Virus record (IMG/VR): IMGVR_UViG_3300038701_000314
Location: 1-56,440 of that record
DNA length: 56,440 nt
Origin: a virus
Reading direction: 5' to 3' (one strand)
The notes beneath the pieces are model-generated. The model saw only the letters and a list, made by a program, of their open reading frames with translations, was not told the origin of the DNA and made no database searches. Positions 384 to 15,125 of this stretch are shown piece by piece (the stretch's first letter is position 1; every line of letters begins with the position of its first letter). The position numbers and the translations under genes are program-made.

Positions 384-734
384 TTAAAAAAGATCATCCT
401 CTACGTTCTCAGGTTCTTCTCCGTTCTGGAGCATCTTATGCCAAGCGTACAGACAGTCATAGCACTCAGGGTGGATATAACCAGTGCCGTGCATACCCTT
501 CCACAAGGTCCACTCGATTGGTCCCGTATCCCAAGTAAACCCGAAGTCTACCCAATACCTTTGGTCTTCATCTAGGTACTCACCCGGTAGACGGTTGTAC
601 ACTACCTCACAGAGTTGCACAAACATATCGTAGTCGTCTACCTCAGGAAAAGGGATACGCTTGAAGTTCTTGCTAAGAGGTGGCTTACCTTCTTGCTTCC
701 TCAGGAAGTTAACTAGTCCGTTCTTAGGTTTCAT
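384..734 (-). CDS. Hypothetical protein with N-terminal shared peptide, 116 aa
   Basis: It begins MKPKNGLVNFLRKQEGKPP, the N-terminal form of a short basic amphipathic peptide found at the ends of about ten other small proteins in this arm (compare 12383-12667 and 11881-12396). The rest is acidic and rich in Trp, Tyr and Asp, with a Cys pair near residue 91 (PECYDC) and an acidic tail. The start overlaps the stop of the upstream gene by 11 bases. I do not recognise a domain; the shared peptide suggests a common partner or location, which is inference. Confidence 0.7.
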   Translation of the reverse strand: MKPKNGLVNFLRKQEGKPPLSKNFKRIPFPEVDDYDMFVQLCEVVYNRLPGEYLDEDQRYWVDFGFTWDTGPIEWTLWKGMHGTGYIHPECYDCLYAWHKMLQNGEEPENVEDDLF

Positions 735-1071
735 CTTTCAGAATCCAATCCCAGTTGTTTTTAATCCACTCTTGGTCCTCTAAGAGTTCTACTTTATCCC
801 CGTGTTTGTCTTTAAGTTGTGAGTAGATACCAGCAGTCATACCACCCAGTCGATAGGAGTCTACGTAGCACATGTAGCAAGAACCACTAGAACCGTAGAA
901 GTACCAATAGTCCCCGTCGAACTCATGTCGAGTGATACCTGAGTTCATTCGCCATGAGTCACCATCTAGGTATCCTCCTGACCAATCTGCTAGTACTCTA
1001 TAGTGAGGGTCATCGCCTGTAATCTTCAGGATTACCCAGTAGTTTGGTGTGTAAGTAGTCGAGTTTGTCAT
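724..1071 (-). CDS. Hypothetical protein, 115 aa
   Basis: A 115-residue protein with many aromatic residues and Gly (GGYLDGDSWRMNS; WYFYGSSGSCYMCYVD). It contains a CxxC pair near residue 65 but no second pair, so a zinc site is not shown. GAGGAGTAACC lies upstream of the ATG. No family recognised; it sits in the early operon between two other small unknowns. Confidence 0.65.
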   Translation of the reverse strand: MTNSTTYTPNYWVILKITGDDPHYRVLADWSGGYLDGDSWRMNSGITRHEFDGDYWYFYGSSGSCYMCYVDSYRLGGMTAGIYSQLKDKHGDKVELLEDQEWIKNNWDWILKDET

Positions 1072-1098
1072 AGTAGTGGTTACTCCTCCTCAGGTTTA

Positions 1099-1266
1099 CT
1101 AGTCATGTACTTCTACTTTCTTTACATATGAGTTGAGATAAAAATCTTTGTCGGTGTACCTTTTGCTTTCCCGAAACTTGAGAGCAGACTCCTCTGACTT
1201 AAAGATCATATTGAGTACATCTTCGTAAGCTTGTGTAGTGAAGAATAAACAGTGAACGTAGGTCAT
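1099..1266 (-). CDS. Small hypothetical protein, 55 aa
   Basis: A 55-codon frame that begins MTYVHCLFFTTQAYEDVLN. It has AAAGGAGTAAAC upstream of its ATG, and that ATG abuts the stop of gene 1267-1452. The sequence is mixed alpha/beta, ending in a basic stretch (YVKKVEVHD). It fills an otherwise empty 195-base gap, which supports it. Function unknown. Confidence 0.6.
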   Translation of the reverse strand: MTYVHCLFFTTQAYEDVLNMIFKSEESALKFRESKRYTDKDFYLNSYVKKVEVHD

Positions 1267-1452
1267 TTAGTTTACTCCTTTTCTTTTATTAATAAGTTTA
1301 GTCCACTCTTGAAACTCAAGGTACTCTACATCAGTCCGTGGGTCTGAGTAACACCAAGCATCGTAGTGACTCACTGTTTTTGCTTCGAGAGTATCTCGGC
1401 ACACCTCAAAGACCATCTTATCATAACAACGAACAACCAGTGGCCGCGGCAT
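1267..1452 (-). CDS. Small hypothetical protein, 61 aa
   Basis: A 61-residue protein starting MPRPLVVRCYDKMVFEVC, with AAAAGGAGACACTTT before the ATG. It is encoded immediately downstream of the primase-helicase with a 13-base gap, so it is very probably co-transcribed with it. No recognisable domain. Confidence 0.6.
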   Translation of the reverse strand: MPRPLVVRCYDKMVFEVCRDTLEAKTVSHYDAWCYSDPRTDVEYLEFQEWTKLINKRKGVN

Positions 1453-1465
1453 AAAGTGTCTCCTT

Positions 1466-3001
1466 TTAAAACGGCAACAAGCGTTCCTTCATAGTGAATG
1501 TCTTGAGGTCAAAGAGCATAGCCCCACCATTCCCTGTGATAGACGCTGGTCGGTTCTTCTCTACCTTGATGTAAGTAGTATTACTCTCATCAAAGTTTTC
1601 GTTGTCGATATCACGCTCAAGGTCAATGATTACAGAGGCTCGTTGACCAATCATCTTACAGTACTTAGGGTCACCATTGTCGTTAGTGTGGGCGATAGTC
1701 ACAATACCAATACCAAGACTAGCTGCAAGTTTTGATAGGCGAACAGACAAGTCAGCCAAGGATTGTTCTTTACCTTCCTCTGAGCTTGATGTGATTACAT
1801 CTTGTATAGGCTCAAAGAATACAAACTTACAACCACATACCTCAGAGAAGTACCTGATCTGGTCACACAGTTCGTCTGCACCCTCTGAGTCGTCAAGGTA
1901 AAACTGGTAGAAGTTCTCATCTTTAGTCAAGTCAACAATAGCGTCCTGCACTTCTTGGTCTTTCTTCTTACCTTCAATGATATCATCACGAGTAAGATCG
2001 TCCTTAAGGTGGTAAGACACAAGGCCCAAGAGGGAACGCTTCTTTGTCTCCTCTAGGTGCCAAGAGGCGATAGGTACGTTAAGCTGAAGCATCTGGTGCT
2101 CAAGGTAACGCATGAACTCAGTTTTACCCCGTCCGGTCGGAGCCTTGATGACTGTGAACTGACCTTGCATAAGCCCTAGGATTTTATCATCTAGTGCCTC
2201 GATACCCGTAGGAACGAACTCATGCTTAGGGGAGTCTTTGTAGAGAGACAAGAACTGGTCAGGGGTGTTCAATACGTTAGGTGGTGTATACTTCTTAGCA
2301 TTCATCCAAGCGTAGAGATAATCTGAGGACTCCCCGGCTTCAAGGTACTCGTTAGGGTCTTTGTGCTTAGTCATTGGTACTCGGTAACACTTACCGGGGA
2401 ATGCCTTGGTGAGTAGCTCCGCTGTCTTGTCCCCTGCCTCATCGTTGTCTGTCGAGATAATAATACTATCAAAGGACTTGAGGTAGTTGTAGCACTTAGG
2501 GTTCTTGAGTACCTGTTTGATAGTACCAGCACCGGGGAGGGCTACTACAGGCCAACGATCACCTAGCATCTGGATAGAACTAAGCCAGTCGTCTTCACCT
2601 TCTACGATAGTAAGCTTCTTGGAGGTGCCTGCATTGAAGAAGTCCATACCGAGAAGATGGTCATTGGTGAACCCTTTGTTACGGGAGAAGTCCTTGGGCA
2701 GAATACGTACCTTGGGTCGATGGGGGTAGGGGTACACACGGGTAACCTCCTTACCGTCAGCGTCTACACCTGTCAGTACGTTATACTTCTCAGTCAGTTC
2801 CTTGGAGATACCTCGGTACCCCCTGTGTTCTAGTGTTAGATCGGATTGATCGTATGATTCCACTTGTTGTTTAGCTCCTTTAAACTCAGGGTTATACCCT
2901 TTGAAACATTGGTGACAATAGGTACCACCATTGTCAAATATAGTCAAACACTCATGTCCACCACAGTCAGGACAGGTCTTATGTGTCTCTTTTGCTGTCA
3001 C
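1466..3001 (-). CDS. Primase-helicase, T7 gp4 type
   Basis: A 511-residue replication protein. Residues about 10-35 hold a Cys/His zinc motif (CPDCGG then CHQC), as in the T7 gp4 primase zinc domain. A TOPRIM region follows, with VEGEDD near residue 135 and STDNDEAGD near 184. A RecA-type helicase domain begins with Walker A APTGRGKT near residue 286. Members of this family unwind DNA as hexamers at the fork and lay down RNA primers. It is the only core replisome component in the window; a polymerase must lie outside. The next gene downstream in the transcript is 1267-1452, and the RNA ligase precedes it. Architecture and length fit the family well. I have not checked every catalytic residue of the primase half, so primase activity is less certain than helicase. 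Confidence 0.93.
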   Translation of the reverse strand: MTAKETHKTCPDCGGHECLTIFDNGGTYCHQCFKGYNPEFKGAKQQVESYDQSDLTLEHRGYRGISKELTEKYNVLTGVDADGKEVTRVYPYPHRPKVRILPKDFSRNKGFTNDHLLGMDFFNAGTSKKLTIVEGEDDWLSSIQMLGDRWPVVALPGAGTIKQVLKNPKCYNYLKSFDSIIISTDNDEAGDKTAELLTKAFPGKCYRVPMTKHKDPNEYLEAGESSDYLYAWMNAKKYTPPNVLNTPDQFLSLYKDSPKHEFVPTGIEALDDKILGLMQGQFTVIKAPTGRGKTEFMRYLEHQMLQLNVPIASWHLEETKKRSLLGLVSYHLKDDLTRDDIIEGKKKDQEVQDAIVDLTKDENFYQFYLDDSEGADELCDQIRYFSEVCGCKFVFFEPIQDVITSSSEEGKEQSLADLSVRLSKLAASLGIGIVTIAHTNDNGDPKYCKMIGQRASVIIDLERDIDNENFDESNTTYIKVEKNRPASITGNGGAMLFDLKTFTMKERLLPF

Positions 3002-3889
3002 TTAGAACAACTCCGGTTTTACTTCTTTCACCTTTTGAAATGTTAGGCGTTGAAGGTACTTGAAGTCGATCTTAGGGTTCTTGTGTTTCTTAAGAATCTC
3101 CCACATTTCCTCTTTAATAAGGTCGTAGTATACCGTGTTAAGTAGACGAGGGATAGCTTTGCTCGACCAACCATCCTCGTTCTTAATTTTCTCGTATACT
3201 TTATTTACTAGGTGCTCTGTTACGAACTCATTGGCAATACGCTCCTCATCCGTGATACCTCCTAGTTCAGTCCCACCCATCTCCTTTACGTGTAAGTCCT
3301 TGAATGTATTTGTGATTACTTTAGCCCAAGTCTCACGCCCAAAGCGGTTAGACCAACCATAGTTTTTAATAACTACACCTTCACCAACTCCCTTACCGTC
3401 CTCGATCATGAAGGTATTTCGGTCAACAGACTTTCGGAATGTCTCATCATCTCCGTTCTTCACAGTAGCTATGCAAGGAACATAATCAAATCCGTAGAGG
3501 TCTAGAGTCGCTTTATAGTCATTGTATGGGATGTAATCACCGCAAGGATCAACTACATCAAAGATGTAAAACCTGCGCCAAGCATCCTCACGGTAAGTCT
3601 TTAAACTATGCGGAACAAGCCATTCACCGTAGAGGTAGTGCTCAGGGTAGTCTGTAAAGAAAGCGACAAACATATCACTGTTGTCGATCACCCAACGAAA
3701 GAAACCTGCGTTATCGTTTTCTAGTGTTAGTTCACGGTTACGGGAACCACCCTTAAGGTTACCTTCAGAGTCCATCCAGACAGAGGCGTTAGTGCCGTCA
3801 AGCTTAGGGAATACGTGGCATACCCCAGATTGAATACCTTCCACTTCACTTGTACCTAGACGTTCTAGGTGTTGGTATTTTTTAAACAT
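3002..3889 (-). CDS. RNA ligase, nucleotidyltransferase superfamily
   Basis: A 295-residue protein with the ordered motifs of the ATP-dependent ligase superfamily. Motif I is KLDGTN near residue 39 (the Lys is the adenylated residue), motif III FYIFDVV near residue 112, motif IV GEGVVIKNY near 188 and motif V WAKVI near 206. The KxDGTN form and size resemble T4 Rnl2-like RNA ligases, which seal nicked or cleaved RNA, including tRNAs cut by host defences. I start it at 3889 because AAGGAGAAGAGT precedes that ATG; a longer reading from 3916 would add nine residues without a better site. It lies directly upstream of the primase-helicase. A DNA ligase role is less likely because no OB-fold or BRCT extension is seen. 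Confidence 0.85.
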   Translation of the reverse strand: MFKKYQHLERLGTSEVEGIQSGVCHVFPKLDGTNASVWMDSEGNLKGGSRNRELTLENDNAGFFRWVIDNSDMFVAFFTDYPEHYLYGEWLVPHSLKTYREDAWRRFYIFDVVDPCGDYIPYNDYKATLDLYGFDYVPCIATVKNGDDETFRKSVDRNTFMIEDGKGVGEGVVIKNYGWSNRFGRETWAKVITNTFKDLHVKEMGGTELGGITDEERIANEFVTEHLVNKVYEKIKNEDGWSSKAIPRLLNTVYYDLIKEEMWEILKKHKNPKIDFKYLQRLTFQKVKEVKPELF

Positions 3890-4095
3890 ACTCTTCTCCT
3901 TTTCTTTCGTTGTCATTCAAACCTTCCTGTAGTAGCCAAAGCATTTCCTCTGCTTCACTTTTGTTTTGAAGCAACCACCTAGCTATATCAGCTAGACTCA
4001 TTGCATCGTCAAAACATACGTACTTTATTTTACCCTCGAATCCCTTATCGACTAGAATTGTAACCGGGTCTGTTTTAACTTCAGGTATAAGTCAT
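3882..4095 (-). pseudogene. Small gene with a +1 frameshift at codon 5
   Basis: A good ribosome binding site (AGAAGGAA) and ATG at 4095 open a frame that stops after four codons (ATG ACT TAT ACC TGA). Dropping the T of that TGA gives a continuous 70-residue protein that reads like a normal phage gene (VTILVDKGFEGKIKYV, then SLADIARWLLQNKSEAEEML). It ends at 3882, overlapping the RNA ligase start by 8 bases as other genes here do. The long frame itself has no ATG or GTG start near its beginning. It could be a disabled gene, a sequencing error, or a programmed +1 shift at a UGA codon; the sequence alone does not decide. Confidence 0.5.
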
Positions 4096-4172
4096 TTCCT
4101 TCTACTCCATAGTTCAGCTAGGATTATCGGTAGTACGTATACTACGAGTATTAGTAGTACTAGTTCGAACAA
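4092..4172 (-). CDS. Candidate 26-aa membrane peptide
   Basis: A TTG-started frame encoding 26 residues, almost all hydrophobic (ELVLLILVVYVLPIILAEL) and ending in the basic SRRK. It would make a single transmembrane helix. AGGA sits 8 bases before the TTG, and its TGA overlaps the ATG of the next small gene in the classical ATGA arrangement, which suggests translational coupling. Too short to support by homology, so the call rests on composition and spacing. Confidence 0.35.
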   Translation of the reverse strand: MFELVLLILVVYVLPIILAELWSRRK

Positions 4173-4177
4173 TAGTT

Positions 4178-4585
4178 TTATCCTAACAGTTGGTAAATGT
4201 GGTACAGTTGAGTCTGACCTTCAGGTACAGCTACCATACCTTGAGGTTCAACCTGATAATAAGGTGGTGGCGTAACCTCTACAGAGTCGTCACCTGAGGT
4301 CCACTCATAGGATATTGTAACTGTGAGTCCTTCAAATGTCAAGGTAAAATCTTCACTGTCACTAGGGCCATGTACAGGAGTGTTGTAGTAGGTCACTGTA
4401 GCTACAGCATTAGGTACCTGGGGCGGGCCTAACAGGATGTACCCGTAGTCCCCTGCTGAAGACAGGTCGGGGTATACTCTCATACTCTCAGTTGACTCAG
4501 GGTTGTAAGGTTGTACATAGTCTGAGGCTTCAGCCATACAAGCACTGAGAGCAAAGAGTAGAGCTAACATAGGTTCTTTAATCAT
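4178..4585 (-). CDS. Early lipoprotein, 135 aa
   Basis: The start at 4585 gives MIKEPMLALLFALSACMAE: a short signal peptide with lipobox LSAC, so Cys16 should be lipidated after signal peptidase II cleavage. The mature protein is about 120 residues, acidic and beta-rich with a Pro-rich stretch (VTPPPYYQVEPQG). GGAGACGAAAG precedes this ATG; an upstream in-frame ATG at 4615 would disrupt the signal peptide. It lies in the early arm, far from the lysis genes, so a role in the infected cell envelope such as superinfection exclusion is plausible but unproven. Confidence 0.75.
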   Translation of the reverse strand: MIKEPMLALLFALSACMAEASDYVQPYNPESTESMRVYPDLSSAGDYGYILLGPPQVPNAVATVTYYNTPVHGPSDSEDFTLTFEGLTVTISYEWTSGDDSVEVTPPPYYQVEPQGMVAVPEGQTQLYHIYQLLG

Positions 4586-4748
4586 CTTTCGTCTCCATAC
4601 CTGTGGGTTCATCACCTAGGATAATTTCTTGGATATCTTCTTCCCTCAGGTCTCCAATAGCTTGTCGGATAGCATCTTCACATGGGAAGCAATGCCAATC
4701 ATTATAGACAAACCTAGTCTCTTGTCGGTCACAGATAGAACATTTCAT
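4578..4748 (-). CDS. Small zinc-ribbon-like protein, 56 aa
   Basis: Starts MKCSICDRQETRFVYN and has a second pair in WHCFPCEDA, giving CxxC-x14-CxxC, a typical treble-clef or zinc-ribbon spacing. The remainder is an acidic helix. The ATG overlaps the stop of 4748-5020 (TGATG), and its own stop overlaps the lipoprotein start, so the three genes are translationally linked. Possible nucleic-acid or protein binding; no target can be named. Confidence 0.65.
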   Translation of the reverse strand: MKCSICDRQETRFVYNDWHCFPCEDAIRQAIGDLREEDIQEIILGDEPTGMETKDD

Positions 4749-5020
4749 CAAGCTGCTCCTTTAAGTTCGTCTAGTTTACGGATGTGGCTCACGAAACCTT
4801 TCTTTTCCTTAGGGAGTGGTTCAAACCAGTTGGAACTGTAACACAAACAAAAGTCTCCGTTATCCTCAAAGGTGTGAAATGGTACCGTTATGTCCTTCCT
4901 GTTCGTTAGAAGAGCAGCACCCCCAAGGGTTTTAGCTACGTAGTAGACAGCCCCTACAGTATCGTGGGTATAGCAACTATCTAATAGTCTTACTTTGTCT
5001 CCGGGTTGTAGTTCAGTCAT
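4748..5020 (-). CDS. SH3-like small protein with C-terminal shared peptide, 90 aa
   Basis: The N-terminus reads MTELQPGDKVRLLDSCYTHDTVG, the GDxV start of an SH3-like beta barrel as in other small proteins of this arm. The C-terminus is PKEKKGFVSHIRKLDEL, a divergent member of the recurring terminal peptide (consensus KPKG-I-x-x-F-I-R-K-V-E), with His in place of the usual Phe. Acidic and aromatic residues dominate the middle. Function unknown; the peptide links it to 7356-7598, 7931-8161, 12651-12965, 13816-14094 and 14675-14947. Confidence 0.7.
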   Translation of the reverse strand: MTELQPGDKVRLLDSCYTHDTVGAVYYVAKTLGGAALLTNRKDITVPFHTFEDNGDFCLCYSSNWFEPLPKEKKGFVSHIRKLDELKGAA

Positions 5021-6233: not shown

Positions 6234-6725
6234 TCACCCTTTCACAATCTTAACGTCATAGCCCAAGACTTTACTAATCTCTTCCACTGTCATTTCCTTG
6301 GTGACTGGCGGTGTATACTTCTTGGTGATCTTGAAAGCGAACACCCTTGAAGAATACGTATGGGTCCAAGTCTTAGATATCGTATTTACACCGTACACCT
6401 CGACACAACCATTAATGGTATTAAATACTTTAACCTTAACTACATCCTGAGGATGCAAAGGACATTCACCTCCACCCCACATGTACCACTTACCTTCTTC
6501 ATACTTGTGTGCTTCTTCTACCATCTTTTTATCTTCCTCTGCTAGTTCTACTGTCTTCTTGTTAATGTGAGTTTGAGTTTCTTTTAACCAAAGGTTACCA
6601 TACTTAAAACCCTCTACGGTCACCGTATAACTGCCGTTAGAAAAACTAGTACCATCTTTTCTTTTAATCTTATCTCCAATCTTAAAACACGGTAGTGCGT
6701 CGTCACTCTGTGACTTAAAACTCAT
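6234..6725 (-). CDS. SH3-like protein, paralogue of 7931-8161, 163 aa
   Basis: The N-terminal 60 residues (FKIGDKIKRKDGTSFSNGSY, then LKETQTHINKKTVEL) align residue for residue with the small protein at 7931-8161 (FKEGDRVRKVDGTPFSNG, then FETQSHLDEHKLVL). That module looks like an SH3-type beta barrel. The second half repeats a similar theme with a Trp-rich start (KWYMWGGGECP) and ends in a helix (MTVEEISKVLGYDVKIVKG). It lacks the C-terminal shared peptide that its paralogue has, so it appears to be a duplicated and extended copy. Function unknown. Confidence 0.7.
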   Translation of the reverse strand: MSFKSQSDDALPCFKIGDKIKRKDGTSFSNGSYTVTVEGFKYGNLWLKETQTHINKKTVELAEEDKKMVEEAHKYEEGKWYMWGGGECPLHPQDVVKVKVFNTINGCVEVYGVNTISKTWTHTYSSRVFAFKITKKYTPPVTKEMTVEEISKVLGYDVKIVKG

Positions 6726-6762: not shown

Positions 6763-7359
6763 TTAGTAAGCATAAGTATTTTCTTCTGTCTCTCGGTAAG
6801 GTACAGGGTCGATACCTACACGGAGGACATACTCGTTAGTCTTCATGTCGAACTCACAGAGTTGATCTACATTGTTCATCCAAGTGAAACACTCGATAGG
6901 TGTCTTGTAATACTTGGAGGGGTGTACCTTGACCTTAACCCTGTCGAAGTTGGTTTCATTCTCGTAGTAGGCGTCTAGCTCCTGCATAGCCTGAAGGTTA
7001 CAGTACACTAGCTTACCTTCCAGAGGCATAGCCCTACCCATAGTATACTCCTTAAGAGACAGGAAGTCAACATCATCCGGCTCCTCAAGACAGTAACTTG
7101 GGTAGTAACTATGGTCAGCAAAGATGTTGTACCAAGGGAGGTACTTCCTTTCGGTGATAGCGGTAGGATGCCTGATTTCTACACTCTTGGTGATATCAAC
7201 ATGACCTAGGACTGTCTTCAAGAGTCCATAGTCTTGGTTGTCATCCCAAAGGAACACAGGTATAGCTCCACCAAAGTAACGGAGGGAGGGTAGATCAGGT
7301 GTCCAGTTAGCTTGTAGATCAATGTCGATCCACTTCTTGATTGTTGTGTTAGCAGTCAT
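6763..7359 (-). CDS. Possible gamma-glutamylcyclotransferase-like protein, 198 aa
   Basis: A 198-residue protein. The segment from residue about 115 (LEGKLVYCNLQAMQELDAYY) followed by NETNFDRVKVKV resembles the late part of the GGCT/AIG2 fold: a G-x-L strand, an LD..E helix, then an R-x-x-V strand. The early part lacks the usual YGTL nucleotide; FGGAIPVFLWDDNQ occupies that place. If correct, this is a second GGCT-like protein next to the amidoligase cassette (GGCT at 10496-10942), four genes further along the operon. The match is by eye and weak; an unrelated fold is possible. Confidence 0.6.
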   Translation of the reverse strand: MTANTTIKKWIDIDLQANWTPDLPSLRYFGGAIPVFLWDDNQDYGLLKTVLGHVDITKSVEIRHPTAITERKYLPWYNIFADHSYYPSYCLEEPDDVDFLSLKEYTMGRAMPLEGKLVYCNLQAMQELDAYYENETNFDRVKVKVHPSKYYKTPIECFTWMNNVDQLCEFDMKTNEYVLRVGIDPVPYRETEENTYAY

Positions 7360-7598
7360 TTAGAGTACTCCTGATGTATTTTGCCCAAGAACTTACACAA
7401 TCCTTTCTTCTTGGTTTTAGCTTCGAGTAGGTAAAGAGATGATGCATGGAACATAATATCTGTGTGTACCTCACCGTTGTTCTCATACCAATCACCCCAA
7501 ACTTCTCCGTCCCTAGCTTCTGTTACGATAGCGTACTTGTACTCTGAGGCCCACACTTGTGTGGATTGAACCTTATCACCTACTTTAAACTGTTTCAT
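7356..7598 (-). CDS. SH3-like small protein with C-terminal shared peptide, 80 aa
   Basis: N-terminus MKQFKVGDKVQSTQVW (GDxV barrel start), C-terminus KTKKKGLCKFLGKIHQEYSK, a member of the recurring terminal peptide. The middle is Trp/Tyr/Asp-rich. It overlaps the gene on either side by a few bases. The order of barrel then basic linker then amphipathic helix is the same as in 7931-8161, 12651-12965 and 14675-14947, which suggests related roles. No function can be assigned. Confidence 0.7.
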   Translation of the reverse strand: MKQFKVGDKVQSTQVWASEYKYAIVTEARDGEVWGDWYENNGEVHTDIMFHASSLYLLEAKTKKKGLCKFLGKIHQEYSK

Positions 7599-7941
7599 GT
7601 CTATCTTTCTCCACTTTACGTAGGAACCTAGCGATACCCCTAAGGTGTTCCATACCTAAGATATCTTTCTCTGAGTAACGGATAACTTCTTTCCTACCGT
7701 CTTCAGTTTGATGTAGTACACCAGCAAAGTAGACTAAACTAAAGAAAGAGTTTCGGTACTCGTGGCAACAGTTGTCTGGTGTATTGTCTGGGTCGGAACT
7801 TATCCAACACTCTTGAGGATCATACTCTGACTCAGGGACTGCTACTACGTAACCTACGATAGGAAGAACATCATTAGGGATATCTCCGTCCTTGAGTACC
7901 AGTACTTTCTCACCTAGTTCAAGTGGTCTATTAACTGGCAT
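7585..7941 (-). CDS. SH3-like small protein with C-terminal shared peptide, 118 aa
   Basis: Begins MPVNRPLELGEKVLVLKDGD and ends with MEHLRGIARFLRKVEKDRHE, fitting the recurring terminal peptide (G-I-x-x-F-L-R-K-V-E). The central region has two Cys/Trp-containing acidic stretches. It overlaps both neighbours (14 bases downstream, 11 upstream), with CGGAGTAT-like spacing at its start. Part of a run of three consecutive genes carrying the peptide (7356-8161). Confidence 0.7.
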   Translation of the reverse strand: MPVNRPLELGEKVLVLKDGDIPNDVLPIVGYVVAVPESEYDPQECWISSDPDNTPDNCCHEYRNSFFSLVYFAGVLHQTEDGRKEVIRYSEKDILGMEHLRGIARFLRKVEKDRHETV

Positions 7942-8164: not shown

Positions 8165-9067
8165 TCACCGTCCTTTCTTTTGGTTAGCTACCTTCAAGTC
8201 TTTCTCACAAGCTTGGAGAGAATAAATCAACTCCTTGATTAGAAGCTCAGAGTCCACAGGTTTACCTGCAATCTCACAGATAACGTCGTCGCTGAAGTGA
8301 AAGGAATCTGTGATACTCTTGAGGCCGTACTTCTTACTGAACTTTTGCACTGTACAATCCTTGAATTTACTTCCTGTATACGGGGTTACACTACCTTGAG
8401 AAGGGTAAGTGTTACGATAACTACTCGGAGTGACATAAGTAGTCGGTATTGGTTCTCGGTGTCTAGGGTTGAAGCTGTAAGTATTGGAGTAGTACCAACC
8501 GTCCTCTTGCTTACCACCATTACCCGTCTCGTTACAGATAAGAGAGTTACCTTCGCCATCTAGGAAGGTCAGGACACTGGCGTTAGACAACTGATCTTCA
8601 AGGAGTTTCTTGGTGAAGTCGTCAGACAACAACTCCTCAGGGTCCATACCTCGGGCCAATCGCTTGAACAAAGGACGAACAAACTCACGAACAAAGACAC
8701 GAGTATCACTCTCGGTGGATGTATTACTCTTGGGGCGATACTTACTGAGTGTACCGTTATGAGCCATACGAAGGTCAATGCCATCTACATCACGCTCAAG
8801 CACAGGGAAAGGATGAGCATTACGCAGGATAGTATCACCTACAGTAGTATACCGAAGGTGAACCATGACCTTCTGGTCAATAAGTTCTTCGTTGATTAGT
8901 TTGTAGAGTTTGTCGGGGTCAGCTTTGTCTGCACTACGAAGAGTGATAAGCTTACCGTCTTGGTCAGGGTAGGACAAACCATAGCCATCGGGGTTATTGA
9001 TGATAGCTGACTCGAACTTCTCGAAAGGAAGGATAAACTTAGGGTCCCTCTGGATGATTAGGCACAT
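8165..9067 (-). CDS. Class II glutamine amidotransferase-like Ntn hydrolase
   Basis: A 300-residue protein starting Met-Cys-Leu-Ile; Cys2 would be the N-terminal nucleophile after Met removal. Further family marks are NPDGYGLSY near residue 26, HLRYTTVGD near 71, AHPFP near 84 and MAHNGTL near 102, the standard order in class II (PurF-type) glutaminase domains. Such domains release ammonia from glutamine or cleave amide bonds. The ATG lies inside the last codons of the amidoligase gene, so the two are translationally coupled. In published surveys of phage amidoligase clusters, Ntn hydrolases of this kind accompany GS-like ligases; here it may supply ammonia or trim the product. The C-terminal 100 residues show no domain I recognise. 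Confidence 0.82.
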   Translation of the reverse strand: MCLIIQRDPKFILPFEKFESAIINNPDGYGLSYPDQDGKLITLRSADKADPDKLYKLINEELIDQKVMVHLRYTTVGDTILRNAHPFPVLERDVDGIDLRMAHNGTLSKYRPKSNTSTESDTRVFVREFVRPLFKRLARGMDPEELLSDDFTKKLLEDQLSNASVLTFLDGEGNSLICNETGNGGKQEDGWYYSNTYSFNPRHREPIPTTYVTPSSYRNTYPSQGSVTPYTGSKFKDCTVQKFSKKYGLKSITDSFHFSDDVICEIAGKPVDSELLIKELIYSLQACEKDLKVANQKKGR

Positions 9068-10509
9068 TGTGTTTGCTCTCCCTTGTTATACTTGAAGATG
9101 TTGTGAATAGCTGAGAACTTGGAGTGCTTCTTGATGAAGCTGGTGAACATACGGGCAAAGTTAGCATCAAACCCTGAGTAACCGATACCTTGACAGTACT
9201 CGAACATAGCCTCAGTAAACGATATACTACGCATGATGTGTCCAATGTCGAAGATACCTTGGTACACTCGTACTTCGATAGTCGCTGAGTTACCATCGTG
9301 GGCTACAGTAGCTCGCTCAGTTACCCGAATACCCTTGAGACGTTTAGCCAAGCTGCGTTGAGCACGTTGACGCTCGAACTTGGGGATACCTGTAACCCGG
9401 CTACTACCTTCACTTGTATTTTTGTATGTCTGGAAGATACGGCAGTAGCTATGGTCAGTATAACCTGAGGGGCGACAAGCTGCATCGGAGATAACACCTA
9501 CGGCATCCTCATCCCATTGGTGCCAAGCTGTAAGGAACTTGTTAGAGTGAGACTTGTCGATGAAACTATCCTTGGAGACATGGATGTGGAGACCATTGGT
9601 CAAGGAAGTACTGGTGTCGATGTAGTCACTGATAGTCTTACCCTTGGATTCAGCAAGACGCTCAAGCTTCTGGAAGAAAAGCTTCCAGTTCTTGCGGAGA
9701 TAACGGGGCGTACAAGGTACAGTCACAAGTTCGAGACGGTGGTCATACGCCCCTGAAATACTGCCATCTTGCTTGAAGATAAAGAATGGTTCCTGCTTAG
9801 GCTCAACGTCTGTAATGATGTACTGAATCTCCGTTGTAGTCAGCTTGGAGCTAATCTCAAGTTCCATACCGAAGAAAACACTGGACTCCTTGGAGGCTGA
9901 ACGGAACCAGTTGAAGTCATCACTACTCATGTTGAAAGAATAGTTATAGTGTTTGTTCCACTTGGTCTCAACACCACGGGTAGCCTGAGGGATGGTTTCG
10001 ATAGGTGTAAGGATCAAGTTCCCCAAGTAAGACATTGTAGGGGTGTAGCTCTTGGGTCCATTATCTACTACCTCAGGTTCATCCTCAACACAGAGAAGGA
10101 AGCGACCAGCAGACGCTGAGGTTGTAATACGAGGGTTGTTGTAGGTGACAGAAAGGGACTCCCTTGGAAGCATACCCGAAAGGGACTCCTTACACACCTC
10201 GTAGTTAGAACCCATAAGGTCATCCGAAGGAATGTGGTCAAAGAACCGGTACACTTGGTAGAACAGTGTGTCCCAAAGGCTAGTACCAACACCACCACAA
10301 GCCTCCTTGAGAAGATCACGGTTACTGATCCACCACTTGAGTACCGAACGGATAGTAGTGAACCCAAGCTGAAGGTGTAGTTCAGGATCGTGGAGGTACA
10401 TTTGGTTGAGTTTGACTTGCCTACCTGAGTGGTCAGTGAACTCAAGGACAGGGATAAACCAAGTCTCTTCGATCTTGAAGGTGTGTTCATTGAAGTTAAT
10501 AGTGCGCAT
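9058..10509 (-). CDS. Amidoligase, glutamine-synthetase-like COOH-NH2 ligase
   Basis: A 483-residue protein with the Amidoligase_2 pattern in its second half. FGMELE near residue 213 is the acidic metal-binding strand; DGS then RLELVTVPC follow near 248-262, NGLHIHVS near 306, and IEVRVYQGIFD near 415 followed by a helix with SFTEAMFEY. These enzymes use the glutamine synthetase fold to activate a carboxylate with ATP and join it to an amine, making peptide-like or isopeptide bonds. The first 200 residues are a non-catalytic extension without a recognised domain. Start chosen at 10509, where AAAGGAATTAACT precedes ATG and overlaps the GGCT stop; an in-frame ATG at 10551 lies inside the GGCT gene. 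Substrate unknown. Confidence 0.85.
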   Translation of the reverse strand: MRTINFNEHTFKIEETWFIPVLEFTDHSGRQVKLNQMYLHDPELHLQLGFTTIRSVLKWWISNRDLLKEACGGVGTSLWDTLFYQVYRFFDHIPSDDLMGSNYEVCKESLSGMLPRESLSVTYNNPRITTSASAGRFLLCVEDEPEVVDNGPKSYTPTMSYLGNLILTPIETIPQATRGVETKWNKHYNYSFNMSSDDFNWFRSASKESSVFFGMELEISSKLTTTEIQYIITDVEPKQEPFFIFKQDGSISGAYDHRLELVTVPCTPRYLRKNWKLFFQKLERLAESKGKTISDYIDTSTSLTNGLHIHVSKDSFIDKSHSNKFLTAWHQWDEDAVGVISDAACRPSGYTDHSYCRIFQTYKNTSEGSSRVTGIPKFERQRAQRSLAKRLKGIRVTERATVAHDGNSATIEVRVYQGIFDIGHIMRSISFTEAMFEYCQGIGYSGFDANFARMFTSFIKKHSKFSAIHNIFKYNKGEQTQCA

Positions 10510-10942
10510 AGTTAATTCCTTTGCTAACTGGGTTCCATACCCATTCGTCATTCTCAGTTACGTCACATTTATAGCAACGACACAGGTCAGACAGTTCTTT
10601 GTTTACGTAAGTCCAGCAGGTAAGTCCGTCTGCAAGCTGGATTAGTTCCCGCTGGTAGTGGTGAGGTACACCTTCAAGTCGGTCAAGTTTACCTACTACA
10701 CTATCGTCTGATACCTTGAAGACATCAACGACTACAGGTTTAAGCAAGTGCTCAGGTACTAGGTTGTCTGTATCCTTGAAGAGATAAGGAAACCCAACGT
10801 CCCCTAAGACATATTTATCAAGGGTTACGTTAGGTCCTACATACTCAGAGTCAGACAAAACCCACCGCCAATTACTACAACCGTATTTCAAAGTTCCGTA
10901 TACTGCGAAAAGTGGGGTAATACTCAGGTCGTCTTGTTCCAT
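10496..10942 (-). CDS. Gamma-glutamylcyclotransferase-like protein (GGCT/AIG2)
   Basis: A 148-residue protein with FAVYGTLKYG near residue 12, the phosphate-type loop of the GGCT fold, and LDRLEGVPHHYQRE near 80-93, whose Glu is the expected catalytic acid. The family cleaves gamma-glutamyl amides to 5-oxoproline or acts on related isopeptides. Start at 10942, with AAAGGAGTAACT before ATG; an ATG at 10966 falls in the upstream gene. Its stop overlaps the amidoligase start. Its place in the cassette suggests it processes or reverses the linkage made by the ligases, which is inference. Confidence 0.83.
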   Translation of the reverse strand: MEQDDLSITPLFAVYGTLKYGCSNWRWVLSDSEYVGPNVTLDKYVLGDVGFPYLFKDTDNLVPEHLLKPVVVDVFKVSDDSVVGKLDRLEGVPHHYQRELIQLADGLTCWTYVNKELSDLCRCYKCDVTENDEWVWNPVSKGINYAHY

Positions 10943-10944
10943 AG

Positions 10945-11184
10945 TTACTCCTTTGATACCACCCAAGCTTCAAAGACTACAAACTCTATAGTCCTACCTA
11001 AACTTGAACCAGTTAGGTCACCCCAAGTGTATTGCCATTCATTCTCTATAGCACTCCAAGCTTCTTCCTCTGAGGTGTAACCCCAAGCATTGAAGGTAGT
11101 TTCACCCCAACTATTCATAGGGTCTTTAATAAGACCATCCCGAGATATCTCCTTGATGTAGTACCTTTTAGTTCTACTGTACAT
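10945..11184 (-). CDS. Small hypothetical protein, 79 aa
   Basis: A 79-residue protein starting MYSRTKRYYIKEISRDG, with several Trp (FNAWGYTSEEEAWSAIENEW) suggesting a compact alpha/beta fold. It is embedded between the ATP-grasp and GGCT genes of the amidoligase cassette, overlapping a stop at each end. It could be a substrate or accessory of the cassette, but nothing in its sequence shows this. Confidence 0.65.
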   Translation of the reverse strand: MYSRTKRYYIKEISRDGLIKDPMNSWGETTFNAWGYTSEEEAWSAIENEWQYTWGDLTGSSLGRTIEFVVFEAWVVSKE

Positions 11185-11354
11185 TAGTTATCTCCGTTCA
11201 ACATAGCTACCACTTCTTCACAAGACACATCAACAGAACGGCTAGACCCGACAAGCCTTACCAAACACTGTTTATCCCGGAAGTCAAACTCCTCTACTAC
11301 TTCTACCATACAGGGGTTAAACCAGATACCAGAGATTAAGATTAGAGTACACAT
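11184..11354 (-). CDS. Small hypothetical protein, 56 aa
   Basis: A 56-codon frame (MCTLILISGIWFNPCMVEVV at the start) between the ATP-grasp stop and gene 10945-11184, joined by a TAATG overlap. AGAATAG precedes the ATG, a weak ribosome binding site. It has four Cys and a hydrophobic beginning, possibly a small soluble alpha/beta protein. Located within the amidoligase cassette; role unknown. Confidence 0.55.
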   Translation of the reverse strand: MCTLILISGIWFNPCMVEVVEEFDFRDKQCLVRLVGSSRSVDVSCEEVVAMLNGDN

Positions 11355-11357
11355 TAA

Positions 11358-12326
11358 CTATTCTCCTTCTGTGATAGATGGGTGGATCACCTGTCGCCAG
11401 TTGTCATACCCTTCAGGTGTATTGAAGTGTTCCTTACCTGTCTCAGCAATGTACTTGAAGCACTTAGCCATTACTTTTTGGCGATAAGACACAGAGCCAT
11501 CAGACAACAGAGGTAGGCTAGGTGCTGAGTTAAGCTCAAGGATATAGGCTCTACCCTCACGGTCAACCATTACGTCTACCCCTGAGAAGTCAAGACCTGA
11601 GTACTTGAAAGCTTCAAGGGCTACACGGCATACCTCAAGGTTCCAATCACCCCAACGTACTACATCGAAGCGACCACCTTGGTGTACATTCCAAGCTACA
11701 GCAGATGGATCATCAGGTGTTTTCTTGGCTACCGTAGCTACCCTACCTGATACGACATAGACACGATACTCAGCTACCTTGTCGATCAACTCAGAAGCAT
11801 ACCAACCGTTACGGAACACATGAGGACGTTCATGCACTACATTAAGTAGTTCGTCCAAACTGTTGACAACGAAGAGGTTTCTACCCTGAGCGTGGGTTGC
11901 TGGGCGAAGGACTGTAGATGTACTGAACTGATTCCAAAATGTCTGTGAGTGAGACTCTAGTTGTTGTCCCATCATAGAGGTCATTGTAGTTGGTACCAGA
12001 GACTCGTCCTGTTGCTGTAGCTCTTGCCGGAACATCATCTTGTTGTTGACCTTGGTTATGCTGGAGGATGTATTCAACTGCCTTGTCAAGGGTACTACTC
12101 CTGTCGCCGTTGTACATCCCCAACGAATCAGTAGTGTGTCCTCCTGCTCCAAGGCACCGCCTGATGCTGAGGCAAGCTTGTCGTTCCGACATACCGAGGC
12201 GACAGACCCAATGGATGTAACTACGCCAGTCTCGTTCACCGGCGATCCATTCAAGTAAGCCCTCATACCTCTGATAGAGCCTGCTCCCAAGCCTTTCCTG
12301 CGCAAAAAGCAAATCCGTTGTGTCAT
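11358..12326 (-). CDS. ATP-grasp ligase, RimK-like
   Basis: A 322-residue protein with the layout of phage ATP-grasp ligases. It has an N-terminal segment with FLRRKGLGAGSIRGMR, LLIRWG near residue 80, NNKMMFRQEL near 106 (start of the ATP-grasp domain), VLRPATHAQGRNLFVV near 152 (nucleotide Lys/Arg and Gly loop) and, near the end, FSGVDVMVDREGRAYILELN, whose Asp/Glu/Asn coordinate Mg. The family joins a carboxylate to an amine with ATP. It heads the cassette with amidoligase, GGCT and Ntn hydrolase. GAAGGGA lies 9 bases before the ATG. Its first 149 codons overlap a second open frame (11881-12396) in the +1 frame. Confidence 0.82.
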   Translation of the reverse strand: MTQRICFLRRKGLGAGSIRGMRAYLNGSPVNETGVVTSIGSVASVCRNDKLASASGGALEQEDTLLIRWGCTTATGVVPLTRQLNTSSSITKVNNKMMFRQELQQQDESLVPTTMTSMMGQQLESHSQTFWNQFSTSTVLRPATHAQGRNLFVVNSLDELLNVVHERPHVFRNGWYASELIDKVAEYRVYVVSGRVATVAKKTPDDPSAVAWNVHQGGRFDVVRWGDWNLEVCRVALEAFKYSGLDFSGVDVMVDREGRAYILELNSAPSLPLLSDGSVSYRQKVMAKCFKYIAETGKEHFNTPEGYDNWRQVIHPSITEGE

Positions 12327-12396
12327 CTTGTGTATTCCCTTCTAACTTCTTCATGAAGCGGATAAAGCCGCCTTTAGGTTTCCTATTTGCTCGCAT
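11881..12396 (-). CDS. Overlapping frame with N-terminal shared peptide, 171 aa
   Basis: This frame begins MRANRKPKGGFIRFMKKLEG, an N-terminal copy of the recurring peptide, with GAGGAG upstream of its ATG. It then stays open for 171 codons, of which about 149 overlap the start of the ATP-grasp gene in a different frame. Its early part reads like a natural protein (YQRYEGLLEWIAGERDWRSY, then an Arg/Cys-rich helix); the last third looks more like a shadow of the ligase frame. The N-terminus is well supported by the shared peptide. How far the product extends, or whether a ribosomal shift joins it to the ligase, is open. Confidence 0.5.
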   Translation of the reverse strand: MRANRKPKGGFIRFMKKLEGNTQDDTTDLLFAQERLGSRLYQRYEGLLEWIAGERDWRSYIHWVCRLGMSERQACLSIRRCLGAGGHTTDSLGMYNGDRSSTLDKAVEYILQHNQGQQQDDVPARATATGRVSGTNYNDLYDGTTTRVSLTDILESVQYIYSPSPSNPRSG

Positions 12397-12667
12397 GATA
12401 GTTATACAACTCCTCTAACCATTGGTAGTCTTCAGGACTTAGAGGTACACTACCTAGGTCCCTAGAGTTCCAGTAATTAGACCCTTGTAGTGTAGTATCC
12501 CAATCGAAAGAATTAAGCAACTGAGGGTAGCAGCCCCTAAGGACTTCAAGCAAAGGTTGTAGTCGTACACACTTAACCTCTGAGATGCCCTCTAGGACTA
12601 CAGAAGGTTTACCATCCCTCTTCCTAACGAAGTCCTTGAACCCTCCTCGTTTACTCCTTGTGAACAT
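12383..12667 (-). CDS. Hypothetical protein with N-terminal shared peptide, 94 aa
   Basis: Starts MFTRSKRGGFKDFVRKRDGK, the N-terminal form of the recurring peptide, ending in GKP like the copy at 384-734. The body is acidic-aromatic and helical, closing with PEDYQWLEELYNYHASK. AAGGAGGTACAGG before ATG is a strong ribosome binding site. Function unknown; it is one of three genes where the peptide is at the N-terminus rather than the C-terminus. Confidence 0.7.
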   Translation of the reverse strand: MFTRSKRGGFKDFVRKRDGKPSVVLEGISEVKCVRLQPLLEVLRGCYPQLLNSFDWDTTLQGSNYWNSRDLGSVPLSPEDYQWLEELYNYHASK

Positions 12668-12965
12668 CCTGTACCTCCTTAGGTTGCCTTGGGTACTCAG
12701 ACTCTACCTTACGGATGAAAGCCCCTATACCTTTGGGTTTCCTTGCCCTTACCTTGAGCCTACACATCAAGTCATAACCGTTACAGCCATAAGCTACCTC
12801 AGGGCCATAGTCAGAACTAATATTGACAACAAGAGTATCACCGTGTCTGGTATATAGTTCAGTAGAACCCTCAAGTACCTCAAGCACATCTCCATCTTTA
12901 AGGGGTACCCACTCAACAAGGCGCATACCCCTAGGTTTTATTTCAGGTTGGTTAGTCGTAGTCAT
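12651..12965 (-). CDS. SH3-like protein with C-terminal shared peptide, 104 aa
   Basis: Start taken at 12965, where GGAGGTCTACTACT precedes ATG and overlaps the stop of the HAD gene. The body has beta-barrel-like strands (LKDGDVLEVLEGSTELY). RARKPKGIGAFIRKVESEY is one of the clearest copies of the recurring peptide, here followed by a 13-residue tail. The end of the gene overlaps the start of 12383-12667, itself a peptide-bearing gene. Confidence 0.72.
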   Translation of the reverse strand: MTTTNQPEIKPRGMRLVEWVPLKDGDVLEVLEGSTELYTRHGDTLVVNISSDYGPEVAYGCNGYDLMCRLKVRARKPKGIGAFIRKVESEYPRQPKEVQDVHKE

Positions 12966-13300
12966 AGTAGTAGACCTCCATCGTATTGAGTTACCCAACC
13001 GGGATCATCCCCAATGTCATAACCTGTAACCACAGTGTCAGGCATATCGTCTACCCAAACATCAGCGTACACACCTTTGTGTTTGAACAGGTAGTCTCTC
13101 TTGGCTACACCATTAGTTCCTACACACTTGTCCTCACCAATGATCCTACCGATAGTTTGTACAGGCTCTTCCATGTGGGTTTGATGTCTAGCCGAGACAC
13201 ACCAGACTGTATGCCCTCGGTCCATAGCTTCTTGGGCCACCCAGTTCCAGAACAAAGGGTCTCTAGTGTACGTATCGTCGTAGTCAATAGAGAGTATCAT
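12962..13300 (-). CDS. HAD-like hydrolase, small
   Basis: A 112-residue protein starting MILSIDYDDTYTRD; DYDDT is HAD motif I (DxDxT/V) with the nucleophile at the first Asp. TVWCVSARH near residue 31 fits motif II (Ser/Thr), and WVDDMPD near 82 fits the acidic motif IV. Small HAD proteins of this size in phages are usually phosphatases for nucleotides or polynucleotide ends; the substrate here is unknown. The leader (AGGAGGTACATACTT) is identical to that of the next upstream gene, 13315-13635. Confidence 0.72.
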   Translation of the reverse strand: MILSIDYDDTYTRDPLFWNWVAQEAMDRGHTVWCVSARHQTHMEEPVQTIGRIIGEDKCVGTNGVAKRDYLFKHKGVYADVWVDDMPDTVVTGYDIGDDPGWVTQYDGGLLL

Positions 13301-13315
13301 AAGTATGTACCTCCT
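13293..13315 (-). repeat. Duplicated 23-bp leader, copy 1
   Basis: This 23-bp stretch contains the ribosome binding site AGGAGG, a spacer and the ATG plus first codons (Met-Ile-Leu) of the HAD-like gene. It is identical to 13628-13650, which does the same for the neighbouring gene 13315-13635. The two genes are otherwise unrelated in sequence. Confidence 0.85.
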
Positions 13316-13635
13316 TATGAGTAGTTAAAGATACCGTAAGGCCAAGGAGTACCTTGAGAGAGCACACCTTTACTATCGAACATATGGGTACCTTCAGTAG
13401 TTAATACAACAAAAGCTGATGCCGGGTACTCTTCCCTTTCGATCCACTCTCCTAGAGCGTTGATTACATCTCCTGTGCTCACTCTAATAGTAAGCAGCTG
13501 ACCCTTTGTGTCTCTACTAGACAACCACTCAAGGAAGTTCTGGACAAGTTCTTTGGGTAGGTAACCGTAGTGACCTTGGTTCCAGTCAGCAATACGGTTG
13601 TTCATTACATCAGGGCCTACAAGAATAAGTATCAT
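13315..13635 (-). CDS. Hypothetical protein, 106 aa
   Basis: Start placed at 13635, where AGGAGGTACATACTT precedes ATG; an upstream in-frame ATG has no such site. The protein begins MILILVGPDVMNNRIADWN and is alpha/beta in character, with RVSTGDVINALGEWIEREE in the middle. It is the first gene after a promoter and leader hairpin at 13665-13802. No family recognised; the beginning resembles nucleotide-binding proteins only superficially. Confidence 0.65.
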   Translation of the reverse strand: MILILVGPDVMNNRIADWNQGHYGYLPKELVQNFLEWLSSRDTKGQLLTIRVSTGDVINALGEWIEREEYPASAFVVLTTEGTHMFDSKGVLSQGTPWPYGIFNYS

Positions 13636-13650
13636 AAGTATGTACCTCCT
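13628..13650 (-). repeat. Duplicated 23-bp leader, copy 2
   Basis: Identical to 13293-13315: ribosome binding site, spacer and first codons. The copies lie 335 bp apart, at the starts of adjacent genes. Confidence 0.85.
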
Positions 13651-13664
13651 AGTACAAACAAATA

Positions 13665-13709
13665 CGCCCCGTACAATCCTCAAGGTATGATCCTCTAGGA
13701 CACGGGGCG
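13665..13709 (-). promoter_or_regulatory. Leader hairpin, attenuator-like
   Basis: Arms CGCCCCGT (13665-13672) and ACGGGGCG (13702-13709) form an 8-bp GC stem, extended inside by TCCT/AGGA. On the minus strand the stem is followed by TATTTGTTTGT, a loose T-rich tract. It lies in the presumed leader between the promoter at 13774-13802 and the gene starting at 13635, so it may act as an attenuator or as an mRNA-stabilising structure. Confidence 0.55.
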
Positions 13710-13773
13710 GTGAGTATCTTCTCTTTAAGTTACTAGTACCCTTAGGGTATATTACCCTTGGGACTACAAGTCT

Positions 13774-13802
13774 ATTGTACCATTTGTTTGAGTACCTGTC
13801 AA
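13774..13802 (-). promoter_or_regulatory. Sigma70-type promoter, leftward
   Basis: On the minus strand TTGACA (13802-13797) and TACAAT (13779-13774) are separated by 17 bases. That is a full consensus -35 and a five-of-six -10. It falls in one of the few gene-free gaps of the early arm (13636-13815), just upstream of the leader hairpin and gene 13315-13635. Confidence 0.75.
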
Positions 13803-13815
13803 GAGTTATTTTAAC

Positions 13816-14094
13816 TCAGGAAGCCTTTTCTTCAAGTTTCCTCAAGAATTTACAGATACCCTTCACAGGTCTGTCTTTAGGGCCAACAGGTTCCCAAGTG
13901 TGATCCTCAAAGCTGTGTTGGTCCTGAGGGTCATCTTCATCACCGTAATCGTAGTCTTCAAACCTCACACCGTACCCAAACCTAGGGGAGATAAAGACTT
14001 CAGCCACAGACCCTGTAGAACCACCGGACTCGCCACACCTATACCCTGTACACCTAAGCCTAGTACCTTCTGGGTATCTCCTGTTAGCAGGCAT
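13816..14094 (-). CDS. SH3-like protein with C-terminal shared peptide, 92 aa
   Basis: Start taken at 14094 (MPANRRYPEGTRLRCTGYRC), overlapping the stop of 14084-14488; a GTG at 14133 would add 13 residues. A Gly/Asp/Tyr-rich beta-like body (FGYGVRFEDYDYGDEDD) is followed by RPVKGICKFLRKLEEKAS, a clear copy of the recurring peptide at the very C-terminus. It is the last gene before the gap holding the 13802 promoter. Confidence 0.7.
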   Translation of the reverse strand: MPANRRYPEGTRLRCTGYRCGESGGSTGSVAEVFISPRFGYGVRFEDYDYGDEDDPQDQHSFEDHTWEPVGPKDRPVKGICKFLRKLEEKAS

Positions 14095-14488
14095 AGTAAG
14101 CACCCGTTTCTTCCACGTAGGTCCAGTTGTCACCTACCTCAAGGTGTCCCTCGGTAATCTCGTACATAACGTCAAGGGCTTCACGTACACCTGAAGCTTG
14201 GTACTCCAAGACACAAGGTTGACGGGTATCACCGGGTACATGCAGGAAACTCTCTTGAGCAGACACAAACCCTGAGTTACGTACATGCTTGTCGAAGTCC
14301 ACCAAGAGCATCATGTAACTACGCTCTAAGACCCCGTTGTACGAACCAATACATTGAGACACACCGCCCACAAGCTTACCCATAGCACGTAGACTATCTA
14401 CATACCGAAGGAACTTGGCTTGTTTGTGTACACTGTAACTGGTGTCGATAGCGAATATCACCATTGCTAGTCTGTTAGTCTTGGTCAT
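14084..14488 (-). CDS. Hypothetical protein, 134 aa
   Basis: A 134-residue alpha/beta protein starting MTKTNRLAMVIFAIDTSYSV, with GGAGGTTAAATA before the ATG. The AMVIFAIDTS strand with Asp-Thr-Ser resembles the start of an actin-like or VWA-type metal/nucleotide site, but I see no further supporting motifs. Its gene overlaps the next one downstream. Function unknown. Confidence 0.62.
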   Translation of the reverse strand: MTKTNRLAMVIFAIDTSYSVHKQAKFLRYVDSLRAMGKLVGGVSQCIGSYNGVLERSYMMLLVDFDKHVRNSGFVSAQESFLHVPGDTRQPCVLEYQASGVREALDVMYEITEGHLEVGDNWTYVEETGAYYAC

Positions 14489-14673
14489 TATTTAACCTCC
14501 AATTCACTTAGTCTCACTAACCTCAGATGAGCTTTAGCTTGGTCTATAAGAGCCAACACCAAGAGAAGATGCTGTTCACCTCCCAAAGTCACAGGATCAA
14601 AGGCGTCATCAAAGAGTATCTCTTGTTTAACCCTATCGAGGTCGTCGTACCACTGGTCAAGTATTTCAAACAT
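14488..14673 (-). CDS. Small helical protein, 61 aa
   Basis: A 61-residue, Leu-rich helical protein (MFEILDQWYDDLDRVKQEIL at the start, LLLVLALIDQAKAHLRLVRL in the middle). It shares one base with the ATG of the next gene. The heptad-like Leu spacing suggests a helical hairpin or dimer. No family recognised. Confidence 0.6.
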   Translation of the reverse strand: MFEILDQWYDDLDRVKQEILFDDAFDPVTLGGEQHLLLVLALIDQAKAHLRLVRLSELEVK

Positions 14674-14674
14674 G

Positions 14675-14947
14675 TTAATACTCCTCCTCTACCCGACGGA
14701 TGAAAGCCGAGAGACCCTTAGGTTTAGCTGGTGTTGCAACAAACGGGATAAGATCACCCTTTTTGTAGACGTTAGTTTGACTAATAGACCACTGGACTCG
14801 GTATAAAAAACCAGTATCATAACTAACTGAGTCACCAGTCTCGATAACTGTACCCTCAGTATCCCTAGGGTTGGACCTAGTGTCTTCACCCCAGTACACA
14901 GACTCAGGGCTAATCTTCACCTTGTCCCCTACTTTAAACTCAAGCAT
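14675..14947 (-). CDS. SH3-like protein with C-terminal shared peptide, 90 aa
   Basis: Begins MLEFKVGDKVKISPESVYWG and ends AKPKGLSAFIRRVEEEY, among the best matches to the recurring peptide. Between them are beta strands typical of a small barrel (GTVIETGDSV, FLYRVQWSIS). The start at 14947 overlaps the stop of 14940-15125. With 12651-12965 it defines the consensus: barrel, basic KPKG linker, then a short helix with Phe, Ile, Val and Tyr on one face and Arg/Glu on the other. Confidence 0.74.
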   Translation of the reverse strand: MLEFKVGDKVKISPESVYWGEDTRSNPRDTEGTVIETGDSVSYDTGFLYRVQWSISQTNVYKKGDLIPFVATPAKPKGLSAFIRRVEEEY

Positions 14948-15125
14948 CCTTCTCACCCCTCAAGTTAAGCACCAAGGCTGTGAACTTGGCTGTACTCTGT
15001 GACACACCTGAGACCAACACCTTGTCTTTAAGGAGGTCCACAACTGTCCACTCAAGGTAGTCCTCCCACTCTGCATAGTAGCGATAGCTACGCTCTCTAT
15101 AGTAGCGCATGTATTTACCTCTCAT
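14940..15125 (-). CDS. Small basic protein, 61 aa
   Basis: Starts MRGKYMRYYRERSYRYYAEW, strongly basic and aromatic, then a mixed helix-strand region ending in charged residues. A second ATG five codons in (15110) is a possible start. No known domain; the Arg/Tyr-rich beginning could bind nucleic acid, which is speculative. Confidence 0.55.
   Translation of the reverse strand: MRGKYMRYYRERSYRYYAEWEDYLEWTVVDLLKDKVLVSGVSQSTAKFTALVLNLRGEKDA

Follow-up and report, generated by a model that had tools for sequence, protein, structure and literature searches.

MinD and FtsA carry short terminal basic amphipathic helices that target the membrane, and in encapsulins and microcompartments one short terminal cargo-loading peptide is found on several unrelated proteins. 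LysW, a small carrier protein whose terminal peptide is acidic and conserved, is used by the RimK-like ligase LysX. RimK itself acts on the tail of ribosomal protein S6 by polyglutamylation (PMC7343187), and the TTL/TTLL ligases act on tubulin tails (PMC4431377). In phages, neighbourhoods of amidoligase, ATP-grasp, glutamine amidotransferase (GATase) and gamma-glutamyl cyclotransferase (GGCT) genes were described by Iyer et al. in 2009, as cited in PMC6256558 and PMC10580990; the passages of these two papers that treat them give predicted roles in cell walls, metabolites and peptide modification, and tagged phage proteins are unmentioned there. The literature examined gives the amidoligase/ATP-grasp cassettes of phages no settled role.

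The stretch analysed here, a 56,440-base IMG/VR virus record of a marine-type phage (in the following, the window), carries one terminal peptide of about 12 residues, the tag, at either end of small early proteins. Like RimK-S6 and TTL-tubulin, the known systems in which protein tails are the substrates, it has a Pfam-related ATP-grasp ligase; it differs in that a recognition-like helix is common to many small phage proteins, at the N-terminus too. The enzyme kinds of the Iyer-type neighbourhoods are likewise found in one early operon. LysW and LysX involve one carrier as against ten or more, and no lysine or arginine biosynthetic genes were noted in the window. Unlike the helices of MinD and FtsA, the tag has a conserved G and E/D, is found on many proteins of one virus and is associated with a ligase cassette. 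The cargo peptides of encapsulins and microcompartments are alike in being one terminal peptide on several proteins. No description of shared terminal tags of this kind was found in the open-access papers searched, a search that the 2009 amidoligase paper fell outside.

The tagged proteins of the window

The terminase large subunit of the window is 65-74% identical to those of the Roseobacter phages CRP-13 and CRP-9 and the Puniceispirillum phage HMO-2011, and the virus therefore probably belongs near the HMO-2011-type podophages; a DNA polymerase, a criterion for the HMO-2011 group (PMC9038755), was not identified in the window. A first-pass annotation had described a terminal peptide recurring on at least ten unrelated small early proteins and portable between their two ends. 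All ten peptides were confirmed, each in a minus-strand ORF:

384-734, minus strand: N-tagged small protein (MKPKNGLVNFLRKQEGK...) with an FTWDTG-motif body, adjoining the primase-helicase
4748-5020, minus strand: SH3-like small protein with C-terminal tag KKGFVSHIRKLDEL
7356-7598, minus strand: SH3-like small protein with C-terminal tag KKKGLCKFLGKIHQEY
7585-7941, minus strand: small protein with C-terminal tag LRGIARFLRKVEKD; a similar C-terminus, ENLKGIARFFKEKE, is found in loci L085 and L086
7931-8161, minus strand: SH3-like small protein with C-terminal tag ALGISKFIKDMEEKY
11881-12396, minus strand: N-tagged ORF (MRANRKPKGGFIRFMKKLEG...), sharing about 445 nt with the ATP-grasp gene in a different frame
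12383-12667, minus strand: N-tagged small protein (RGGFKDFVRKRDGK...) with an FDWDTTLQG-motif body, upstream of the ATP-grasp gene
12651-12965, minus strand: small protein with the tag KPKGIGAFIRKVESEY close to its C-terminus, the last 14 residues lying beyond it
13816-14094, minus strand: SH3-like small protein with C-terminal tag VKGICKFLRKLEEKAS
14675-14947, minus strand: SH3-like small protein with C-terminal tag KPKGLSAFIRRVEEEY; AlphaFold helix at residues 79-89

With an HMM of the ten peptides, scores were 18.3-26.6 bits for its members, 4.1 bits for the highest-scoring other ORF of the window and 2.7-7.0 bits for the best hits in 20 shuffled ORF sets, and no further copies were found elsewhere within the 56 kb. 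When each peptide was left out in turn, nine of the ten were recovered above every non-member, the exception being 12383-12667. The single peptides are each short and weak, as a chance likeness among short basic peptides would have them, but the tag stands well apart from every other ORF and from the shuffled sets and recurs in relatives, which has already refuted that explanation.

The core of the tag reads G-Φ-x-x-F-Φ-x-K/R-Φ-E/D, and the residue before K/R is often basic. G is present in 10/10 tags of the window and in 12/12 of locus L156, and E/D in 9/10 and 11/12, respectively. Since the codons vary at conserved residues, the tag is conserved as protein and not as DNA: in the window, all four codons occur for the invariant G and both codons for K and for E, R is encoded by AGG and CGT, and the codon variety in the tags of L156 is similar.

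In AlphaFold2 models the tag region is a helix and is the most confidently predicted part of each model (block means 86-87); a low-confidence stretch separates it from the body, and the rest, with a mean pLDDT of 65, is of low quality. The helix is amphipathic (hydrophobic moments 0.45-0.84), the discriminant D reaches about 0.8 or higher in 16 of 17 tags, and the net charge is positive for nearly all tags. This predicted helix on a linker is shaped as a docking motif would be. A Foldseek search with the C-tag model gave no significant match (best E 0.26), and its matches to eL21 and nitrile hydratase, being non-significant, are suggestive at most.

The earlier suggestion of a common docking site or anchor thus retains a real, portable, amphipathic terminal helix on a linker and loses the unrelatedness of the proteins, which had been put too strongly. 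All seven C-tagged proteins have an SH3-like start of the F-K-x-G-D-x-V type. Two N-tagged proteins (384-734 and 12383-12667) form one body family with the signature F-x-W-[DS]-[TS]-x-Q-G, which is recovered by a body-only HMM without the tag, and the third N-tagged ORF is the one lying partly across the ATP-grasp gene in another frame. Portability itself was borne out: copies are found at both termini, and at least two families of bodies carry them. Starts of this SH3-like type were also observed at 15332-15853 and 6234-6725, there fused to other C-terminal sequences and untagged.

The body-only profile of the N-tagged family detected many cassette relatives with the tag and gave a weaker match in phage PQ867843, which lacks it; the neighbourhood of 384-734, including the tag, is also present in L002, L004, L006, L085, L086 and L089. 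PHROGs 11307 and 9469 match the body of 14675-14947, which has relatives at 34-46% identity in Shigella, Morganella, Pseudomonas and Acinetobacter phages; in the homologues from Shigella vB_SdyM_006 and Pseudomonas ventosus other sequence replaces the tag. Because body homologues occur without it, the tag is separable from the bodies, and these are not ten unrelated folds. Loss of the tag from retained bodies, proposed as an argument against it, was encountered in distant phages only; within the clade, members that have the N-tagged body family have kept it.

The ligase cassette and the distribution of the tag

The tag is no isolated curiosity: it co-occurs with an ATP-grasp/amidoligase/glutamine-amidotransferase cassette, and some other cassette phages have different tags. 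The ATP-grasp, amidoligase-like, glutamine amidotransferase and GGCT genes all lie in one operon of the window:

6763-7359, minus strand: 198-aa protein of unassigned function, accompanying the cassette in relatives
8165-9067, minus strand: class II glutamine amidotransferase (GATase_4), by profile match
9058-10551, minus strand: amidoligase-like protein; no Pfam match, PHROG 16683
10496-10966, minus strand: gamma-glutamyl cyclotransferase (GGACT/AIG2-like), by profile match
11358-12326, minus strand: ATP-grasp ligase, above the Pfam cut-offs for TTL, GSH-S_ATP and RimK

The ATP-grasp scored 33.1 bits against TTL (cut-off 20.1) and 28.9 bits against RimK (cut-off 21). The amidoligase assignment is weak, being based on weak PHROG matches, among them that of the L087 homologue to an amidoligase PHROG, and on synteny. 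A single-sequence search of IMG/VR with the amidoligase-like protein found no relative, and neither did a search of bacterial genomes with the ATP-grasp alignment.

The tag is present in the close relatives L002, L004 and L006 and in the cassette loci L085, L086, L087 and L089. In an unbiased test, IMG/VR was searched with the ATP-grasp sequence alone, and 7 of the 12 new loci carried the tag (L151, L152, L154, L155, L156, L158 and L160), with about 12 tagged proteins in L156 and at least 8 in L158; loci with an ATP-grasp and no tag were L008, L150, L153, L159, L161 and L162. Among 73 loci fetched with the helicase at 54-56% identity none had the tag, and no cassette was detected there either. 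Fisher's P for the ATP-grasp set against the helicase set was 1.6e-7, a value to be taken as descriptive, given the relatedness of the loci and their unequal lengths. An extended tag HMM, with a threshold of at least 11 bits, found tags in 14 of 35 cassette loci; in 117 loci with no detected cassette the tag was found only in L002 and L004, which are short contigs of the closest relatives, and as five matches in loci fetched by a tag-like DNA pattern. This degenerate pattern of the tag DNA yielded 26 stretches across IMG/VR, mostly chance matches, and it hit no cassette locus because R/V variants were missed by the pattern. Occurrence at chance frequency, which the first-pass annotation had named as the outcome that would count against the tag, is not what was seen, as relatives carry it well above chance. 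Tagged genes were nearer to cassette genes than other small genes were, both in the window and in the phages CVT22, CW02, RHph_N3_19 and phiM6 with tags of their own (permutation P <0.0002 to 0.027).

A tagged ORF starts 34-70 nt before the ATP-grasp start, in an identical relative frame, in the window and in L085, L087, L151, L152, L154 and L155. In these seven loci the overlapping ORF is open for 107-200 codons, against an average of 16-30 in synonymous shuffles (P 0-0.006), and in eight ATP-grasp loci with no tagged ORF that frame closes at 7-31 codons. Between L085 and L086, 24 of 140 residues differ in the extension of the overlapping ORF as against 10 in the ATP-grasp frame. An ordinary overlapping gene was rejected, as the extension is not conserved as a protein and only the absence of stops is kept; a frameshift fusion of the tag to the ATP-grasp was likewise rejected, as it would leave the 107-200 open codons unexplained. 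The overlapping tagged ORF is regarded as translated. In several loci its tag codons coincide with a purine-rich stretch before the ATP-grasp start.

Shared C-termini in other cassette phages

A genome-by-genome scan for recurring terminal peptides, in which no prior knowledge of the window tag was used, revealed large families with different peptides in four other cassette phages (L101, L104, L107 and L111). About 15 small proteins end in QxGDTEEDI in Rhizobium phage RHph_N3_19, about 14 in DQEPxEDEE in Sinorhizobium phage phiM6, about 12 in LLEEN in Salinivibrio phage CW02 and about 19 in LENE in Citrobacter phage CVT22. The tag sequences are unrelated between phage groups, although the cassette enzymes are homologous. 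RHph_N3_19 and phiM6 vary in codon use at the invariant tag residues. In CVT22, GAG encodes the first E of LENE in 17/17 cases, and CW02 is similarly biased, so that the shared ends of these two phages may embed a ribosome-binding site. A likeness of VEEEY to the tubulin tail GEEY was set aside, as it holds for some tags only.

The same scan found no recurring tag family in the cassette phages PA11, TL, Phriendly, Marvin, MEP401, PQ867843 and PQ867840, and in the CRP, HMO-2011 and T4 regions tested there was no comparable family, with scattered pairs at most. One strong terminal-peptide pair was detected in the 50 kb covered of phiEco32. The cassette phages RIO-1 and HP1 had only two or three paralogues with shared ends; in RIO-1 (7457-7744 and 13205-13459) and in HP1 (L114) these share the C-terminal PELPLN[QH]VIGIP.

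Readings of the shared peptide

Because the tag tracks ATP-grasp loci, tagged genes cluster near the cassette, the overlapping tagged ORF stays open and four other cassette phages have shared C-termini of their own, and because the ATP-grasp passes the cut-offs of the TTL and RimK families, whose known members act on protein C-termini, we tentatively infer that the tag docks small proteins to the peptide-ligase cassette, for modification or for use as carriers. The tag would be a helix dedicated to docking or recognition, borne on a flexible linker at one or the other terminus of small early proteins, and may bring small effectors to the phage's own ATP-grasp, amidoligase-like enzyme, class II glutamine amidotransferase and gamma-glutamyl cyclotransferase. 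This machinery would then modify the tagged proteins or use them as carriers, in the manner of RimK with ribosomal protein S6, TTL with tubulin or LysX with LysW. Against it count the seven cassette phages with no tag family, the six loci with an ATP-grasp and no tag, the misfit of N-terminal tags with a chemistry at the C-terminal carboxylate, and tags that are unrelated between groups despite homologous enzymes; tag and cassette might be nothing more than markers of a single clade, and earlier predictions, as quoted in PMC10580990, put the cassette to work on cell walls or metabolites.

The predicted helix on a linker would fit any docking partner, and a common partner other than the cassette, of phage or host origin (the replisome or an assembly scaffold), with the cassette as a mere neighbour, is a possible but doubtful alternative. 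In L085, L086 and L089 one N-tagged gene is placed between the primase-helicase and the DNA polymerase, and in L002, L004, L006 and the window it adjoins the helicase, as such a partner might lead one to expect; the clustering of tagged genes near the cassette speaks for the cassette instead, as does the finding of no tag in moderately related helicase-bearing phages with no detected cassette. Membrane targeting, as by the ends of MinD or FtsA, would agree with the high hydrophobic moments, the basic face and the values of D, and the terminal position and portability are compatible with it, but we consider it improbable: the invariant G and conserved E/D are unnecessary for membrane binding, residue identity is not free, the hydrophobic face spans only about 11 residues and the shared peptides of other cassette phages are acidic. 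There is a similarly small chance that the tagged proteins are fast-diverging paralogues whose ends happened to be kept best, with no separate role for the tag. The SH3-like start of all C-tagged bodies and the common family of two N-tagged bodies point that way, whereas a paralogue relic would hardly be expected to recur across body families, at the start of some proteins and the end of others, and in an overlapping ORF, nor would body homologues be expected to lack it in other phages. A constraint on the DNA, either a Shine-Dalgarno sequence embedded for the next gene or a recombination boundary, is very improbable as a general explanation and largely excluded for the window tag. It draws on the purine-rich site that tag codons in the overlapping ORFs provide before the ATP-grasp and on the codon bias in CVT22 and CW02, and it conflicts with the varying codons at invariant residues in the window, RHph_N3_19 and phiM6.

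If docking to the ligase cassette is right, a phage-specific set of small proteins with one terminal peptide would be candidate substrates for the cassette enzymes, and dozens of uncharacterised small early proteins would gain a common function. It is conceivable, though rather unlikely, that some cassette phages run a private protein-tagging economy, in which a group-specific peptide on about 10-20 small proteins marks them for modification by the ligases or for use as carriers and in which tags have been replaced by unrelated sequences in separate groups. A swapping of tags between phage groups while the enzymes stay would make this a phage-encoded recognition code for protein modification.

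Two other features were observed in these genomes. The window contains near-perfect pentapeptide-like repeats (ANLQGADL...) at 15857-16711, with a long alternative-frame ORF at 16078-16680. Relative to its shorter homologues in L003 and the window (54634-55443), a 560-aa metallophosphoesterase ORF of L006 (12811-14493) contains an intein-like insertion.
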